A stretch of 64,000 nucleotides of DNA. Source: Ulva prolifera (taxonomy: Eukaryota; Chlorophyta; Ulvophyceae; Ulvales; Ulvaceae). The stretch spans positions 7,053,836 to 7,117,835 of the forward strand of contig CM041198.1 of NCBI GenBank assembly GCA_023078555.1. Direction: 5' to 3'. The notes below the pieces were generated by a model. That model was not told the DNA's origin and ran no database searches. It was given only the letters and a program-made list of their open reading frames with translations. The stretch's first letter is position 1. The number at the start of each line of letters is the position of its first letter. Positions 14,008-24,362 of the stretch are shown here, piece after piece. A program made the translations under genes and the position numbers.

Positions 14008-14152
14008 AGCAGCTGCTTTGTGGTGTGCCGACACGGGCGTGGGCGCTTGAACATGGCATCCATCGGCGTGCATGTGTTGCGAACACATGCACGCCGATGG
14101 TTGCCACGTTCGAGCGTCCACGCCCGTGTCAGCACACCACAAAGCAGCTGCT
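14008..14152. repeat. Large foldback (71-bp inverted repeat arms, 3-nt loop)
   Basis: Left arm 14008-14078 and right arm 14082-14152 are reverse complements with about five mismatches; the spacer is GCG. The arms begin AGCAGCTGCTTTGTGGTG and end at GTGCATGTGTT. It could be a foldback-type MITE or, if transcribed, a long hairpin RNA of miRNA-precursor shape. There is no target duplication I can define. Confidence 0.85.
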
Positions 14153-14743
14153 GCTCCATCGCAAAACATCAAAAGACACATCAGGGCGACCAGTTACATC
14201 CGCAGAACCAGTAGACCACGGACTGAGACCACCCACCGACCACCATCCCGCAGCCCTGTACGGTTGCTGCACCATGCCCAGCCCCGAGCGCTCAACGACC
14301 GAGATCCACCAGAAACAGCTGCTGCACTATGCCCGCAGAGCAGTAGCGTACACCTGCCGACCAGCTATGCCTCCCACTTGTACGTACTTGCCTCGAGGGC
14401 ATCCCTCCTGGGGCCTACCTGCGGCCTCCATCACCCACTGGACAACACCCAGTGGTGGCCAGCAGTGGGTACTGTCTCACATGAGGCTCTGCGTTCACTC
14501 GGCAGCACCACAGCGGCTGTGCAAATGTGCCGCACAGCAGCTGTGTGTCGCCGCTTCCGCGACACTTTTCCACGCTTCCGCATGGATAACCATGCACGGC
14601 CGCCCCCCCCATGCCCCACGCTACAGCAAAGCTGTGCGCAGAAGGGAAGCTCTGCCACGGACCAGAGCGCCTGCGGCATCTGCTTGCTGCAGTGCAAGGC
14701 GCCATGCTCAGGCGGACAGAGTTACCATGCAGCTGGCAAGCCC
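14153..14743. other. Intergenic DNA with long spurious frames
   Basis: Two frames stay open for about 230 codons on the plus strand (through 14025-14851), but composition is repetitive and no domain or splice site supports coding. It ends at the 9-bp target duplication of the MULE (14735-14743). Confidence 0.4.
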
Positions 14744-14854
14744 CCCCCATGTTATTTTCCCCGACGGTTGTACACCACGCCACCCTCGCTAGCTTGCAGT
14801 CTCAACAAAACTCAAAGCGAAAGCATCAGGGCCACCACAGAAACACACTAAATC
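14744..14854 (+). repeat. MULE left terminal inverted repeat
   Basis: Starts CCCCCATGTTATTTTCCCCG and runs to CACTAAATC. The right-hand copy, read in reverse complement, differs at very few positions, mainly in the C-run length at the tip and one G/A in GGTTGTACACC. Confidence 0.9.
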
Positions 14855-15625
14855 GATCATTTTTGAAATCAGTTGGCATTGCGTTCAGTCGAGATGCGTT
14901 TAGATGCCATGGCGCTTCCAAATTCGAATGTACTGCCGGACCTGTCCATCTCGTGGGATGTACGCTATTTGCGCCTCGAACCTCAGCCTTATGAGTCCGC
15001 AACTTATGATCAAATAGTTTGGACCCTGGATTCGCGCAGGGGTGCCGTCGCTGCTTGTCTTCGCTGTGACGATGTCAACAACACGGCTGCGAATTTTGTT
15101 CTCTCTGAGGAAAAACGGGGAGGTTGCAAGCTATATAAGGAGAAGGATCAGGCCAGTAAAAAAATTACATTGAATCAAATGTTCAATTGAAATTTCTCGG
15201 GTGCTGGGAAAAAATCAGCTAAACTGAAGCAGAGTGCGGGGCTGGTTGGCGCAAACGCTGCCAAACTGGCTACGAACTCAGGCCAGGCATCTGGCAAAAA
15301 ATGTCCTACTCGAGTAGGGAAAGATGCTAGGGGCACTGGTGCCACATGTTGTGCTTGCCGGTACAGCATGCACTGTCGGGTGTTTCGCAATCATCCCAAT
15401 GATCTGTATATCGTCTTGCATAATCATGGGAAGCACAGTAGTGATCCAAATGAAAAGGGCTGTGCACACCAGCCTTTGAAGGTCAGCGATGCAACAAGAG
15501 CATTCTGTGCTGCCAGAATCACAGATGGAGTACCAAATCCTTTGATACTGCAGAGTGCGATCTACATCACATGGTGTGGTTAAGCTGTCTGATGTATGGG
15601 ACTGGAAAGATTCCGCATGTGCAGG

Positions 15626-16054
15626 TGTGAAAGAACACAGCTGCTGTGAGTGTCTCCCTCTAGAGTGCTCACAGATTCATGCAGCCTGCATTCAACATGC
15701 TGAGTTATACCAGCTCAGCAGACTATGTGTCCACAAGCACAAACCAACCACATATCCATGCATGTCAGCTAGAGGACACCATACCTGTGTTTAACTCCAA
15801 TAGACAAGATGTCCTACTGGAGTCAACACAAGGCTTATATGCAAACAAGCACACAGACACATAATGTCTACCTATGTGCAAAACAACAAACGCTCCCGCT
15901 TTCTGAGTCCCTTTATCTCAGGGATCGCGTCGAGCACGTGTACAGCAACCATGCGTACAACCACCTCTTGATATGCTAGCTTCTAGCTCCCTCACACAGC
16001 AGTCTCCTATTGAGCCATGCTTATGATTCTCCTGAAACTCCTGGTTTCACCACA
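15626..16054 (-). repeat. copia LTR 1 (429 bp)
   Basis: Coding-strand ends are TGTGGTGAAACC and CTTTCACA. It matches LTR 3 closely; LTR 2 differs at several bases. Confidence 0.92.
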
Positions 16055-16068
16055 GCCCCCCTGAATCA

Positions 16069-17718
16069 TCAGACTGATTCAATCTGAGAGATCTGCATTC
16101 CCAGCGCCTTTGCTCCAGCCTCCTGCTTCGGGCCTGGAAGCGCCTTGGTGAGGATGTCAGCCTTCATCTCCTCTGTCTTGACAAACACTGCTTCAATGTC
16201 TCCTTGCATCACACGGTGGCGGACAAAATGAAACGCAATGTCTATGTGCTTTGTCCTACCAGCTGCTCCTGGAGTATGCTGCTTCATCAAAACAAGGGCG
16301 GACTGGTTGTCCCCATACATTCGAATACGCTGCATCTGCCCACTCAGCTCAGCCATGAGCTTGCGAACCCACAACACCTCCTTCACCGCTGCAGCTGCTG
16401 CCATATACTCAGCCTCACATGTTGAGCAAGCTACCACAGTCTGCAACTTGGATTTCCAGACCACAGGACCACCATGCATGAGTACAACTGCACCTGAGGT
16501 GCTCTTTCTAGAGTCAGGCTCACCAGCGTAATCAGCATCTGTGTATGCCTCTACAGCGGGCATACCACGCTGATACACAATGCCCCTATCAAGCGTACCA
16601 GCAATGTACCGCAGCACACGCTTGGCAGCTTTCCAATGCACATCAGTTGCAGTTGCCACAAAACGACTCAGTACACCACATGCATATGCAAGATCAGGCC
16701 GATTGTTCACAGTCAGATACAGCAAGGACCCAACAAGCTCAGCGTATGGAGTCTCATCACCGAGAGGAGTGCCTTCATGTCGCCCCAGATGTGTGTTTGC
16801 CTCCAGCGGTGTGGTGACCGCTTTGCTGTCAGACATGCCGAAACGCTCCAGCACATCACGGGCATACTTCGGCTGACCCAACCAGATCTGCCCTAGCTCA
16901 CGGTCCCTCCGAAGCTGCAGACCCAGGAAGTAGGTGACCTTCCCGATGTCCTTGACCTCAAAGGCGCCGGCGATTGCCGCCAAGGCTGCCTGAACCATCT
17001 GCTTCCTGCCGATGATTATACCGTCGTCCACGTAGATTAGAATGTAGACTCGCCGCTGCCCTTCACCTTTGTAGAACATGCATGGGTCCGACTCCGATGC
17101 AGTGAATCCGAGACGGGTGAGCTCGCTTAGCAGCTTGGCGTGCCAGGCACGCGCAGCCTTCTTCAGCCCATACAGAGCTTTCCGCAGTCTGTATGTGCGG
17201 CCGCCGAATGCCTCCGGCATCCGAACGTACACCTCGTCGGTCGGGTCAAGCTCCCCATTCAGGAAAGCTGTTGCCACATCAAACTGATGCAGCTCAAAAT
17301 CATGCTCCGCAGCGTGTGCGAGCATGACTCGAAATGTCGCTTGCTGAGCAGTGGGAGCAAAAACTTCTTCGCAGTCCATGCCCTTGCGCTGCAAGCACCC
17401 CAGCACCACCAGCCGGGTCTTGTACTTGTCAACTGCTCCAAACGCATCGCGCTTGATTTTGTAGACTGGTTTCATCGGCAGAACCCTCTTTCCCATTGGT
17501 ACTTCAGTCACGAGGTCCAGAACCCCCTTCTCAATGATGGATGCCCACTCTGCCTCCATGGATGCACGCCAGAGCTCCGCATCAGGTCGGCCGAGCGCCT
17601 CCGCAGTCGTCTTCGGTTCATCTGTCAGCCCGTCCGCAGCGTACGCATACGCATGGGGTTGAAATGCATCAGGTGCACGCCGCTCCCGTCTGGGGTACCT
17701 GTGTGTGTGAAAGAACAC
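16069..17718 (-). pseudogene. copia element A: 5'-truncated RT and RNase H
   Basis: A 549-codon frame covering only the RT and RNase H half of the polyprotein. It begins at HRYPRRERRAPDAFQPH, contains the DVATAFLNGE block, YGLKKAARAWHAKLL, the catalytic YVDD and the RNase H blocks TDADYAGEPDSRKSTSG and CSTCEAEYMAA, and ends ADILTKALPGPK. gag, zinc knuckle and protease are missing: the internal region is fused at 17703-17706 directly to the partial-LTR leader. Within the shared part it is almost identical to element B, differing at scattered residues. Confidence 0.85.
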
Positions 17719-17822
17719 AGCTGCTGTGAGTGTCTCCCTCTAGAGTGCTCACAGATTCATGCAGCCTGTGTTTAACTCCAATAGACAAGATTACAGAGGT
17801 ATACACTAAGTAGAAGTATACC
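17706..17822 (-). repeat. Leader of element A: partial LTR plus 31-bp spacer
   Basis: 17706-17791 is an LTR fragment with an internal deletion between two CCTG words (left part ending GCAGCCTG, right part starting TGTTTAACTCC). 17792-17822 is unique spacer with an inverted repeat (GTATAC). The same arrangement recurs at 21366-21482, so it predates the split of A and B. Confidence 0.8.
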
Positions 17823-18252
17823 TGTGAAAGAACACAGCTGCTGTGAGTGTCTCCCTCTAGAGTGCTCACAGATTCATGCAGCCTGCATTCAACATGCTGA
17901 GTTATACCAACTCAGCAGACTATGTGTCCACAAGCACAAACCAACCACATATCCATGCATGTCAGCTAGAGGACACCATACCTGTGTTTAACTCCAATAG
18001 ACAAGATGTCCTACTGGAGTCAACACAAGGCTTATATGCAAACAAGCACACAGACACATAATGTCTGCCTATGTGCAAAACAACAAACGCTCCCGCTTTC
18101 TGAGTCCCTTTATCTCAGGGATCGCGTCGAGCACGTGTACAGCAACCATGCGTACAACCACCTCTTGATATGCTAGCTTCTAGCTCCCTCACACAGCAGT
18201 CTCCTATTGAGCCATGCTTATGATTCTCCTGAAAACTCCTGGTTTCACCACA
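17823..18252 (-). repeat. copia LTR 2 (430 bp, shared middle LTR)
   Basis: One base longer than the outer LTRs (extra A in GAAAACTCC) with private substitutions (TACCAACTC, GTCTGCC). Confidence 0.92.
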
Positions 18253-18266
18253 GCCCCCCTGAATCA

Positions 18267-21200
18267 TCAGACTGATTCAATCTGAGAGATCTGCATTCCC
18301 AGCGCCTTTGCTCCAGCCTCCTGCTTCGGGCCTGGAAGCGCCTTGGTGAGGATGTCAGCCTTCATCTCCTCTGTCTTGACAAACACTGCTTCAATGTCTC
18401 CTTGCATCACACGGTGGCGGACAAAATGAAACGCAATGTCTATGTGCTTTGTCCTACCAGCTGCTCCTGGAGTATGCTGCTTCATCAAAACAAGGGCGGA
18501 CTGGTTGTCCCCATACAGCCGAATACGCTGCATCTGCCCACTCAGCTCAGCCATGAGCTTGCGAACCCACAACACCTCCTTCACCGCTGCAGCTGCTGCC
18601 ATATACTCAGCCTCACATGTTGAGCAAGCTACCACAGTCTGCAACTTGGATTTCCAGACCACGGGACCACCATGCATGAGTACAACTGCACCTGAGGTGC
18701 TCTTTCTAGAGTCAGGTTCACCAGCGTAATCAGCATCTGTGTATGCCTCTACAGCGGGCATACCACGCTGATACACAATACCCCTATCAAGCGTACCAGC
18801 AATGTACCGCAGCACACGCTTGGCAGCTTTCCAATGCACATCAGTTGCAGTTGCCACAAAACGACTCAGTACACCACATGCATATGCAAGATCAGGCCGA
18901 GTGTTCACAGTCAAATACAGCAAGGACCCAACAAGCTCAGCGTATGGAGTCTCATCACCGAGAGGAGTGCCTTCATGTCGCCCCAGATGTGTGTTTGCCT
19001 CCAGCGGTGTGGTGACCGCTTTGCTGTCAGACATGCCGAAACGCTCCAGCACATCACGGGCATACTTCGGCTGACCCAACCAGATCTGCCCTAGCTCACG
19101 GTCCCTCCGAAGCTGCAGACCCAGGAAGTAGGTGACCTTCCCGATGTCCTTGATCTCAAAGGCGCCGGCGATTGCCGCCAAGGCTGCCTGAACCATCTGC
19201 TTCCTGCCGATGATTATACCGTCGTCCACGTAGATTAGAATGTAGACTCGCCGCTGCCCTTCACCTTTGTAGAACATGCATGGGTCCAACTCTGATGCAG
19301 TGAATCCGAGACGGGTGAGCTCGCTTAGCAGCTTGGCGTGCCAGGCACGCGCAGCCTTCTTCAGCCCATACAGAGCTTTCCGCAGTCTGTATGTGCGGCC
19401 GCCGAATGCCTCCGGCATCCGAACGTACACCTCGTCGGTCGGGTCAAGCTCCCCATTCAGGAAAGCTGTTGCCACATCAAACTGATGCAGCTCAAAATCA
19501 TGCTCCGCAGCGTGTACGAGCATGACTCGAAATGTCGCTTGCTGAGCAGTGGGAGCAAAAACTTCTTCGAAGTCCATGCCCTTGCGCTGCAAGCACCCCA
19601 GCACCACCAGCCGGGTCTTGTACTTGTCAACTGCTCCAAACGCATCGCGCTTGATTTTGTAGACTGGTTTCATCGGCAGAACCCTCTTTCCCATTGGTAC
19701 TTCAGTCACGAGGTCCAGAACCCCCTTCTCAATGATGGATGCCCACTCTGCCTCCATGGATGCACGCCAGAGCTCCGCATCAGGTCGGCCAAGCGCCTCC
19801 GCAGTCGTCTTCGGTTCATCTGTCAGCCCGTCCGCAGCGTACGCATACGCATGGGGTTGAAATGCATCAGGTGCACGCCGCTCCCGTCTGGGGTACCTGT
19901 GTGCTGGTATCTCTTCTACGGGTGGCGCGCCCGCATCACCGTCATTGTCGGGGTCTTCACCACCATCGGCGTTGCCGTCATCACCAGCATCACCACCGCC
20001 ATCGTCGCCAGCATCTTCATTGCCGTCATCACCAGCATCGTCGTCGGAGTCTTCACCGTCCGAGTCCTCGGCATCACTGGCAGCTTCCAGTGGTGGCATG
20101 TCCGCATACATGTCTGGCTCTCCAAGATCAGGAGTCATCAGGTCTTCATCGGACTCTGAGCCCACCGGCTCTGCATACGCGGGCATCATCTCGCAGTTCA
20201 TTTCATACACACGCCCACGCTTCCGTCCTGTGAGGATGATGCCTCCTTTAGCGTCCATGATCTGACATCTGTCACCCTTCTGGGTGCACTCATGAGCTGC
20301 TTCAGTTGCCAGGAACCCTGATAGAAGGTTCACTGTCATGCTCGGTACCCATAGCACCGAACGCAGCAGCACCAGGCCCGCTGGGCCTCCATCCAGCCAC
20401 ACTTCTCCTTCTCCCATCACATCGTGGCACTCACCACCTCCCAGAACCACTCGCTTGGTGCTGCTAGGTCTCATGTCACGAATCACATTGCGATTGTGTA
20501 CAATGTGGTGAGAAGATCCGCTGTCGTAGAGCAGAGCATCAGTGCTTGCCCCGGCGGCCATTGCCATCCCCTCGGATGGATGTGCAGCTTGTGCAACCAT
20601 TGCTGCTGCCGGCCGCGGGCGATCCTCGGGCTTCACCTTCGGTTGCCGACAGTCCCTCTGGATGTGGCCTACCTTCCCGCAGTTGAAACATTTCCGCGTC
20701 TCTTTCCGCTTCTTCTGGCCCTCGGCGTTCATCGCCTTGCCATCTCTGTTCCCAGCACTATGCTGAGAACTCTCTACCAGTCTGACGGCAGCCTTCAGCT
20801 CCTTCATGACCTGGTTGAAGCCTGCGCTCACATGCTGTGTAAGCATCATGACCAGGGACCCCCTCTCTGGAGCCTCCTTTAGTCCACGCACGAGCGCATT
20901 CGCGGCCAGCTGATCCGCTGCCGCGAAGTCGGTGTCTTGAAGCTTCTCAAGAACCTCAAGCACCCTCTCTGCATACCGCGTGTATGCCTCCGATGAGCCT
21001 TGCCGAATGTCATTCAGCTCGCTCACCAAGAGCGGTTGCCGAAGCTCCTGCTCCGCCTCGTATTCAGCACGCACTTGCTGCCACGCCGCCATGGTGGTGG
21101 CTGCACGGTCAATGATGCGCGCCATACCTCTGTCTTCGACGCAGAGCAGCATCCTGCTCCGGACCTTCGCGTCCGCCATCACTTCCTGTTGTGCAGCCAT

Positions 21201-21350
21201 GTCTGGCTCCTCTGTGAGCCAGCCCTCCATTCCCATAGTAGTCAAGGATGCCCGGAACTGTGCAGCCCACAGCCGGTAGTCCCCACCCCGCTTCAGCTTG
21301 CGGACGGCATGGAGAGTGCTGCTTCGTTGATCTTCCATTGCGCTTAACAC
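18267..21350 (-). CDS. copia polyprotein, gag-protease-RT-RNase H without integrase
   Basis: A 1027-codon uninterrupted frame. Residues 1-200 are gag-like; the CCHC zinc knuckle CFNCGKVGHIQRDC is at about 221-234; the aspartic protease DSGSSHH at about 276; a pre-integrase-like stretch to about 390; then an acidic D/G/E-rich linker (about 400-480). RT follows (about 500-830, catalytic YVDD near 708), then RNase H (about 890-1015, TDADYAG, CEAEY, YGDNQSA, HIDI). Usual copia polyproteins are about 1300-1450 residues with an HHCC/DD35E integrase between protease and RT; that segment is absent and the acidic linker sits in its place. It cannot integrate on its own unless integrase is supplied in trans. 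The start is the first ATG in frame, 133 nt inside the 5' LTR. Confidence 0.92.
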   Translation of the reverse strand: MLSAMEDQRSSTLHAVRKLKRGGDYRLWAAQFRASLTTMGMEGWLTEEPDMAAQQEVMADAKVRSRMLLCVEDRGMARIIDRAATTMAAWQQVRAEYEAEQELRQPLLVSELNDIRQGSSEAYTRYAERVLEVLEKLQDTDFAAADQLAANALVRGLKEAPERGSLVMMLTQHVSAGFNQVMKELKAAVRLVESSQHSAGNRDGKAMNAEGQKKRKETRKCFNCGKVGHIQRDCRQPKVKPEDRPRPAAAMVAQAAHPSEGMAMAAGASTDALLYDSGSSHHIVHNRNVIRDMRPSSTKRVVLGGGECHDVMGEGEVWLDGGPAGLVLLRSVLWVPSMTVNLLSGFLATEAAHECTQKGDRCQIMDAKGGIILTGRKRGRVYEMNCEMMPAYAEPVGSESDEDLMTPDLGEPDMYADMPPLEAASDAEDSDGEDSDDDAGDDGNEDAGDDGGGDAGDDGNADGGEDPDNDGDAGAPPVEEIPAHRYPRRERRAPDAFQPHAYAYAADGLTDEPKTTAEALGRPDAELWRASMEAEWASIIEKGVLDLVTEVPMGKRVLPMKPVYKIKRDAFGAVDKYKTRLVVLGCLQRKGMDFEEVFAPTAQQATFRVMLVHAAEHDFELHQFDVATAFLNGELDPTDEVYVRMPEAFGGRTYRLRKALYGLKKAARAWHAKLLSELTRLGFTASELDPCMFYKGEGQRRVYILIYVDDGIIIGRKQMVQAALAAIAGAFEIKDIGKVTYFLGLQLRRDRELGQIWLGQPKYARDVLERFGMSDSKAVTTPLEANTHLGRHEGTPLGDETPYAELVGSLLYLTVNTRPDLAYACGVLSRFVATATDVHWKAAKRVLRYIAGTLDRGIVYQRGMPAVEAYTDADYAGEPDSRKSTSGAVVLMHGGPVVWKSKLQTVVACSTCEAEYMAAAAAVKEVLWVRKLMAELSGQMQRIRLYGDNQSALVLMKQHTPGAAGRTKHIDIAFHFVRHRVMQGDIEAVFVKTEEMKADILTKALPGPKQEAGAKALGMQISQIESV

Positions 21351-21365
21351 AATGAGCCCATAACC

Positions 21366-21482
21366 TGTGAAAGAACACAGCTGCTGTGAGTGTCTCCCTC
21401 TAGAGTGCTCACAGATTCATGCAGCCTGTGTTTAACTCCAATAGACAAGATTACAGAGGTATACACTAAGTAGAAGTATACC
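21366..21482 (-). repeat. Leader of element B: partial LTR plus 31-bp spacer
   Basis: Copy of the leader at 17706-17822. It occupies the place where a primer-binding site is expected just inside the 5' LTR; the sequence there on the coding strand starts GGTATACTTCTACTTAG and contains an inverted repeat. I could not match it to a tRNA. Confidence 0.8.
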
Positions 21483-21911
21483 TGTGAAAGAACACAGCTG
21501 CTGTGAGTGTCTCCCTCTAGAGTGCTCACAGATTCATGCAGCCTGCATTCAACATGCTGAGTTATACCAGCTCAGCAGACTATGTGTCCACAAGCACAAA
21601 CCAACCACATATCCATGCATGTCAGCTAGAGGACACCATACCTGTGTTTAACTCCAATAGACAAGATGTCCTACTGGAGTCAACACAAGGCTTATATGCA
21701 AACAAGCACACAGACACATAATGTCTACCTATGTGCAAAACAACAAACGCTCCCGCTTTCTGAGTCCCTTTATCTCAGGGATCGCGTCGAGCACGTGTAC
21801 AGCAACCATGCGTACAACCACCTCTTGATATGCTAGCTTCTAGCTCCCTCACACAGCAGTCTCCTATTGAGCCATGCTTATGATTCTCCTGAAACTCCTG
21901 GTTTCACCACA
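21483..21911 (-). repeat. copia LTR 3 (429 bp, 5' LTR of element B)
   Basis: Ends at the base before the second GCAGG target repeat. Nearly identical to LTR 1. Confidence 0.92.
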
Positions 21912-22660
21912 GCAGGCAACCTGCAACGGCTTGCAACCGAAGCCGGACTACCTTCTGCAGAGCCTCACACGTTGATGTCACAACTTGTGCAGACACCCTT
22001 CGTAAAGGACGCTACGATCGACAACACGTTCCTTGCAAATTTGCGCAGGCAGATAGCGACAGCTATGTTTAAAAAGAATCCCGAGGATGCCATTTCTGTG
22101 ACCATCAGGGTAAGCCTGTCCAAAGAATAACTCACTCGCCCACTCCAATCTTTCATCACTGAGAATTTGACTCCTTGCAGTATGGACAGGACGGCAGCTC
22201 CGAGCCAAGGATTTTTCTTGCAGAGCCGGTGATCAACAATGAGCAGGACTGCCTCATTATCCTAGCAAATGATCAGATGATGAAATGGGCAAGGGAATTC
22301 GTTCCTGGTCGAGTCCTTGTGATGGACACCACTTTTGGAACCAACAGATATGGGTTTTCTTTGCTCGTGATGCTTGCAGTCGATGAGCGGGGCAAAGGGC
22401 TGCCTGTCTGTTTCGCCATTATGATGCATGAGGACGCAGCAAGTTTCGAGAAGGTGCTTCAAGTTTTCAAACAAGCATTGAACGAGGGTGGAGAAGGAAG
22501 CAGCAATTTGCAGCCTGCCTCCATTCTGACGGATGATTCAGCAGGTAATCAGAAAGCTGCCAGCTCTGTCTTCCCGTATGCTGTACAAGGCTTATGTCTC
22601 TATCATGTCCGAGCAGCTTTGCAACAGCAATTGCAAGGCAAAACATCGGGCAGGAGATGA

Positions 22661-24061
22661 CTGTGCTGGAAAGCGCAGCAGACCACAAACATCATCGAAT
22701 GCAGTCGAGGCTAACCATTGTGTTCGACCTACTTCGGGTGCCAAGTTTGTCAAGACCAGCAGGAAGATCAAAGCAGACACAAAGAAGACAGCTAGTACAT
22801 TCGATGAGCGTTCAGCCAAGTGGGTGGATAAAGTTTTGGAGAAGGAGAACGCAGCTGCTGTCATGATCTTACAAAGGCCCTGAACCAGGATGGTTCCAAG
22901 GCAGCTAGGCATGTGAGTGGCCTAGACAACAAAAGCTTATGAGTTCAAGTAATAGGGAGTAAGCTGAACTAACTGTCACCATGCGAATTGATGCAGTCTT
23001 AAGTGCTAATACAATGCCCTAAAGTACCTATGAGAACGCCAGTCTTGCTTGATCTTGACTTGGTACTGCTTGACTTGAACTTGAATCTTGTATCTTGATA
23101 TCTTTATTACTTTAAATGCACCATCTTACACTCCCTTTCAACACCGCACCGCACCGACGCCTTTGCTTCTCCTTACATGCTCATAACACAGAGCACTGCC
23201 TATTCTTCACTGTCAGCTCGGCACGTCACAACATAGAGGCCGTTCATCCCGATGTAATTGATAGTATTTTAATTTCGTTCTCAGCCCCAATCGGCCGAGC
23301 TTCCTCAAGGATGAGAAGGCTTATGAGCACTGCAACTACATCAAGCAGAGCAGAGACAAGCGTGCGTCAGAGCTGATGGCACGGCTGAGCGCACAGTCGC
23401 GCATGCATGCATGTGCAGACGGATGCACGCAGCGTGAGTGCATTTGCGCGCAGCTGCGCTGGCTCGAGCAATGCTAGCAACGAGCATGGCTCAGTTACAT
23501 AGCTAGGCCACGACACTGCAGTGCGCGAGGCCCCGTTGAGCTGTGCAAGGCCACCTCTTCAGCCCATCATAGCCGACGATGCTGCCGATACAATCGAATC
23601 TCAGGGCGTCGAGATGGACGACATGGTGTATTTACTGACAAATGGGATACAGAATTCTATGTCCAGTATGTAGAAGTGTTAAAGAGTGTAAGTGCTGTGG
23701 GCTGGCCATCGTCTGTAGCAATGTTCAGCACACCTTACAAATGCCATTTGTCCCGCTACGATTGATGCACCAGTGCTATCGTCTATTGGCGTTGACAGGA
23801 CAAGCTTTCAACAAATTGAGTATCTGACGTGAACTTGTGGCAGGTCGAGGCACCCGACCCAACAGGTCGAGTTGTGTGGGCCCCAGATACATCACGAAAA
23901 GCTCAGATATGTGTTAAAACGTAGCTGTGCAAAGTTACGACGGAGTTTCGAGGAGTGCTGTCCATAAACGGTCGTCCAATGCCACATCTGCATTGAGTCG
24001 CAGCCACCGAGTCGCAATCACGCCGCGAAGGCCACGATGTCCTAACTGATAACCAACAATT
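22661..24061. other. 3' part of MULE, no clear gene
   Basis: Frames in other phases stay open to 22883 (ending AAAVMILQRP), possibly remnants of the transposase C-terminus, but no splice or domain evidence fixes them. A TTGACTTG-type repeat cluster lies near 23048-23100. No other gene is supported. Confidence 0.4.
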
Positions 24062-24171
24062 GATTTAGTGTGTTTCTGTGGTGGCCCTGATGCTTTCGCT
24101 TTGAGTTTTGTTGAGACTGCAAGCTAGCGAGGGTGGCGTGGTGTATAACCGTCGGGGAAAATAACACGGGG
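24062..24171 (-). repeat. MULE right terminal inverted repeat
   Basis: Reverse complement of 14744-14854. It is followed directly by the second 9-bp target repeat GGCAAGCCC. Confidence 0.9.
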
Positions 24172-24362
24172 GGCAAGCCCGCCCTTTGTCACACGGCCTC
24201 GCTGCCACCAATATCATACATCACAGGTGCTTTGTGTCCGGGCGGACAAGCGGCGCCGCCCTCAAGCTGTGTTGCGCGCGTCCTGCTGCAACAAACAACC
24301 AAACGCCACACGCGCTACATACCAAAGCAAGGAGCAGCGGTGCCACCGCGCTGGTCACGCGT

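Follow-up and report, generated by a model that had tools for sequence, protein, structure and literature searches.

Among described systems, a Ty1/copia LTR element nested in a DNA transposon shares with the locus analyzed here a 5-bp target duplication, TG...CA LTR ends, RVT_2 and copia gag domains, and unoccupied sister copies of the host transposon. Introners, according to the available part of their description (PMC9860276), are mostly DNA-transposon-like, short, and spliced, and their target duplication can supply a splice site. Transposon-driven intron expansion in grapevine, as presented in the accessible part of that report (PMC3058033), has in common with this locus that an insertion beside intron sequence could lengthen the intron.

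In the 64-kb stretch of Ulva prolifera DNA studied here (the window), a copia array lies within the transposase gene of a Mutator-like element (MULE). With a probability of roughly 0.8, the arrangement is best explained as a coincidental nested copia insertion at the boundary between intron 1 and exon 2 of the MULE, which would represent ordinary nested-transposon decay rather than a new mechanism. A unit consisting of an LTR, a truncated element, a second LTR, an integrase-less element, and a third LTR lies between the two copies of one 5-bp duplication, having either arrived as a unit or grown in place by recombination. The staggered cut apparently spanned the acceptor by chance and duplicated GCAG/G, with the 70-nt intron staying complete upstream and a second putative acceptor, CAGCAG, placed downstream of the array. 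Transcripts of such a gene would in most cases splice the old intron, enter the antisense LTR, and soon meet a stop. The coordinates of all features are given in Table 1.

Table 1. Features of the MULE copy and of the copia array nested in it (window positions)
Feature	Position	Strand	Remarks
MULE target duplication, left, 9 bp	14735-14743		GGCAAGCCC; matches 24172-24180
MULE copy holding the copia array	14744-24171	+	By comparison with copy L033
MULE exon 1	14894-15554	+	From first ATG of the frame; start inferred
MULE intron 1 (putative), 70 nt	15555-15624	+	GTGCGA...GCAG; paralogue match ends, alignment, donor scores (mixed)
Target duplication GCAGG, left	15621-15625		Last 4 intron bases and first exon base
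copia array, 6.3 kb	15626-21911	-	Two elements sharing an LTR; antisense to transposase gene
3' LTR of array, short form, 429 bp	15626-16054	-	
Truncated copia element 1, internal part, 1,652 bp	16055-17706	-	RT region; frame 16069-17739, 556 aa
Middle LTR, long form, 546 bp	17707-18252	-	99.5% identical to right LTR
copia element 2, internal part, 3.1 kb	18253-21366	-	One 1049-aa frame, 18267-21416
5' LTR of array, long form, 545 bp	21367-21911	-	Internal repeat of its own end
Candidate tandem acceptor CAGCAG, right side	21910-21915	+	LTR end plus duplication; sequence only
Target duplication GCAGG, right	21912-21916		Directly after CCACA
MULE exon 2	21916-22109	+	First base duplicated at 15625
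MULE intron 2 (predicted), 71 nt	22110-22180	+	GTAAGC...TTGCAG; frame change and GT-AG ends
MULE exon 3, catalytic domain PF10551	22181-22660	+	Ends just past deletion junction 22654
Insertion in 3' part of MULE copy, ~650 bp (0.65 kb)	22859-23509		Absent from copy L033
MULE target duplication, right, 9 bp	24172-24180		GGCAAGCCC; second copy of 14735-14743

Unoccupied copies of the MULE elsewhere in the genome establish both the copia insertion and its direction. In 11 of the 12 other MULE copies (L029 to L039), a single GCAGG is followed by CAACC with no insert, and in the window the left GCAGG directly precedes TGTGAAAG. The 12th copy, L040 (G000:C5:9129000-9137000), is diverged; it also lacks copia, and shortly after its GCAGG it has 14 additional bases, which are possibly an excision footprint. 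The acceptor was located by comparison with paralogues: GCAG stands directly before the conserved exon beginning NLQRLA in six of the seven fetched (L042 to L047), the seventh, L048 (E value of 0.022), being too diverged at the acceptor and omitted from the alignment. The duplication, the empty sites, and these paralogue acceptors together back the statement of the initial annotation that the array sits at a 3' splice site and duplicated the acceptor. Its reading of GCAGG as the intron end plus the first exon base agrees with paralogue exons that begin right after GCAG, and CAG/G is indeed found on both sides of the array.

The array was classified as Ty1/copia by its RVT_2-type RT and copia gag, together with TG...CA LTR ends and the 5-bp duplication. 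The 1049-aa frame of element 2 has gag, zinc knuckle (E value of 8e-7), Pol_BBD, and RT matches, including PF07727 (E value of 9e-49) and PF14223 (E value of 9e-8). A domain search of the 1049-aa and 556-aa frames gave no match to the integrase domain (rve, PF00665) expected of Ty1/copia. Such a match is present inside relatives whose LTRs lie 4.63 to 4.65 kb apart (C2:1026388, C2:5666870, and C6:3365650), found among the 150 of 626 candidates that were scored, so that further rve-bearing elements are possible. The array thus consists of defective copia derivatives. Five other LTR pairs are spaced 3.66 to 3.67 kb apart, like those of element 2, a count based on LTR positions and not on the sequence between them; a group of copia elements without integrase may be spreading through help supplied in trans. 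Across the outer LTR stretches (15626-16054 and 21483-21911), 429 of 429 bases agree, indicating that the copia insertion is recent, and the internal parts of elements 1 and 2 share 99.2% identity over 1,651 bases, indicating that they are different copies. The long LTR form repeats its own end and adds a short spacer, 116 bp in all (21367-21482), and the leftmost LTR (from 15626) has neither. Since this LTR nevertheless abuts the target duplication, two forms of LTR end can apparently integrate.

The element that received the array is assigned to the MULEs by its transposase domain (PF10551; E value of 4e-19 in a domain search), long terminal inverted repeats of about 110 bp (108 to 112 bp in the comparison with copy L033), and a duplication of about 9 bp. 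Its transposase gene is on the plus strand. Exon 1 contains an in-frame stop at 15188-15190 that L033 does not have, and about 1.46 kb is missing between reference positions 1617 and 3073, as a result of which the catalytic exon ends at 22660. Because collinearity with L033 extends as far as the right end in the 11 empty copies, of which L033 is one, this deletion and the insertion of about 650 bp in the 3' part are private to the window copy. The window copy is therefore defective, with a stop upstream and much of the second half of the transposase lost. A full transposase cannot be made from it whichever way intron 1 is spliced, and any survival of the copy would be as a non-autonomous MULE whose ends are retained. 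To the left of the MULE, an inverted repeat with 71-nt arms separated by 3 nt occupies 14008-14152. Rfam models at gathering scores had no match in the window.

Introns of the host for comparison were taken from chaperonin genes. The 16 that were resolved range from 73 to 338 nt, come from one gene family, and represent resolvable gaps only, so long introns may be under-represented; one unresolved gap in L116 would measure 943 nt if it were a single intron. Their donors were picked by agreement with the length of the protein model, with ties settled by eye for protein continuity, and ambiguous introns were omitted (L109, 105 nt; L112, 137 nt; L113, 243 and 289 nt; L116, 324 nt; and L117, 291 nt). 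Donors of the form GT(A/G)CG occur in 9 of the 16, with GTGCGA, the sequence at 15555, in two and GTTAAG, the sequence at 15579, in none.

Several accounts of the locus differ in the extent of intron 1. The initial annotation had drawn a 46-nt intron (15579-15624, donor GTTAAG), which in its account the array enlarged, with splicing still able to remove it; in the corresponding rival reading, the resulting intron of 6.3 kb continues to be removed and the gene stays intact. Both copies of the acceptor that this requires do exist, and the 46-nt join is open and in frame, as is the join of the 70-nt intron, because the two differ by 24 nt. The claim that removing the array restores an in-frame intron therefore stands as to the join, while the length of 46 nt gives way to one of 70 nt, which fits the paralogues. 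Of 24 paralogue rows, which are related copies and not independent cases, the 13 that reach past query position 228 all end at query 256 to 257 (window positions 15556-15557), about 24 nt before the proposed donor; the other 11 are fragments ending between query 111 and 228. In the gapped comparison, the alignments of L045, L046, and L047 are interrupted from 15556 to 15620. The gapped alignments of L042 to L044 continue through the intron at about 67%, so the break is a drop in similarity and not a passage into unrelated sequence. The donors of the paralogues, GTATGT and GTATAT, align opposite the GTGCGA that starts at 15555 and share its codon phase, with a 9-base insertion opposite this donor in L042. 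A donor at 15579 would add eight residues to exon 1, and the exon 1 protein matches of five of the six paralogues end before them; that of L042 extends weakly over them, which is in favor of the later donor. The donor matrix built from the 16 host introns is divided, giving 6.2 bits for 15555 versus 0.5 bits for 15579 over positions +1 to +6 and 5.5 versus 2.0 bits over -1 to +6, but 1.8 versus 2.6 bits when four exon bases are included; a first matrix from nine introns likewise did not favor 15555. The base before the donor (position -1) is G for 14 of the 16 host introns and likewise for 15579, whereas 15555 has A there. Two further candidates, 15574 and 15594, have good donor scores but leave the wrong frame or a stop in the exon. 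On the strength of the sequence comparison with paralogues, which outweighs the donor matrix, intron 1 is taken as the 70-nt stretch 15555-15624. An enlarged and still functional intron is thus quite unlikely, the more so as 46 nt is below and 6.3 kb far above the range of the resolved host introns and the transposase gene is broken elsewhere. It is very improbable that 15579-15624 is instead coding and that a frameshift is common to the copies. The +1 frame is open (HGVVKLSDVWDWKDSACAGNLQ...) and runs through this stretch into exon 2 without a stop, but L042 to L047 match the frame only from GCAG on, two residues before the N of NLQRLA, and have GT...GCAG ends of their own.

The position of the array on an acceptor could also reflect a copia integrase guided to splice acceptors or CAGG motifs. 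Of 30 further LTR places in the family, 19 have clean 5-bp duplications, 16 of them distinct by their flanks, in a partial sample in which 40 of 102 candidates were scored and five mismatched LTR ends were left out. The 11 places that were dropped showed no duplication, and some of their boundaries are internal, truncated, or in a complex array. With that of the window included, CAG is present on either strand in 3 of 17 distinct duplications, near the 1.6 or so expected for random 5-mers. AGCAG and GCCTG, which like the window's duplication hold CAG on one strand, speak for guidance, and the 14 other distinct sites, which have no CAG, speak against it. No common motif or splice-site signature is visible among the 17 duplications, and targeting of acceptors by the family was rejected on the basis of this near-chance count and the lack of a shared motif; a guided integrase is accordingly given very little credence. 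Three LTR copies with the AGCAG duplication (C4:5328269, C4:5356994, and C3:9313930 in G000) have identical 25-base flanks, and here the LTR was apparently copied along with the surrounding repeat. A 5-bp cut is estimated to span an acceptor in about one per cent of insertions into an intron-rich gene, and one such case in a copia family of this size is therefore unremarkable.

Under the preferred reading of a coincidental insertion, the consequence for splicing depends on which acceptor is used. The original 70-nt intron is complete upstream of the array with its signals unchanged, so splicing to the first acceptor, with the array staying in the exon, is the default expectation. From the 15554/15625 join, the frame then runs into the antisense LTR and meets a stop at 15792-15794, 56 codons past the join. 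The initial annotation had held that the insertion enlarged the intron and spared the exon. Against this, the old intron survives whole, and removal of the array requires an intron of 6,361 nt, roughly 19 times the length of the longest among the 16 resolved host introns. For most transcripts, the expected outcome is removal of the old intron followed by read-through into the LTR, with use of the distal acceptor probably rare. Judged by eye, pyrimidines seem more frequent in the LTR end preceding the second acceptor than in the original acceptor. It is conceivable, though unlikely, that this LTR end and the duplicated acceptor form a strong tandem acceptor, through which the entire 6.3-kb antisense array is removed from at least some transcripts and alternative use of CAG/CAG adds one residue, and that the retrotransposon is silent at the RNA level by having landed on an acceptor. 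As the copy is already broken by its stop and deletion, the choice of acceptor matters little for the MULE copy in the window.

Compared with the usual nested copia insertion, the duplication here spans a splice acceptor, and the insert comprises two elements that share an LTR, with no integrase domain found in them. Among the papers listed in literature searches, none dealt with the duplication of a splice acceptor by an LTR element. If the array were spliced out, the locus would document a large retrotransposon tolerated via a copied acceptor, which is relevant to intron growth. On present evidence the insertion is recent and the 11 empty copies make its direction clear; the locus also warns that an intron model based on a single sequence can be right at the acceptor and wrong at the donor. 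The presence of a splice site in the target duplication, with acceptor sequence on both sides of the insert, is shared with introners as portrayed in the available part of their description (PMC9860276). Introners are, in that account, short, repeated, and spliced and make new introns, whereas here one large retrotransposon is involved and no recurrence was seen, and the varied sequences of the 17 distinct duplications speak against an introner; the duplicated acceptor belonged to an existing intron, as the empty copies and the paralogue alignment indicate. In contrast to intron expansion in grapevine, as far as it is covered by the accessible part of the report (PMC3058033), the complete old intron remains upstream of the insertion, and lengthening is not forced.
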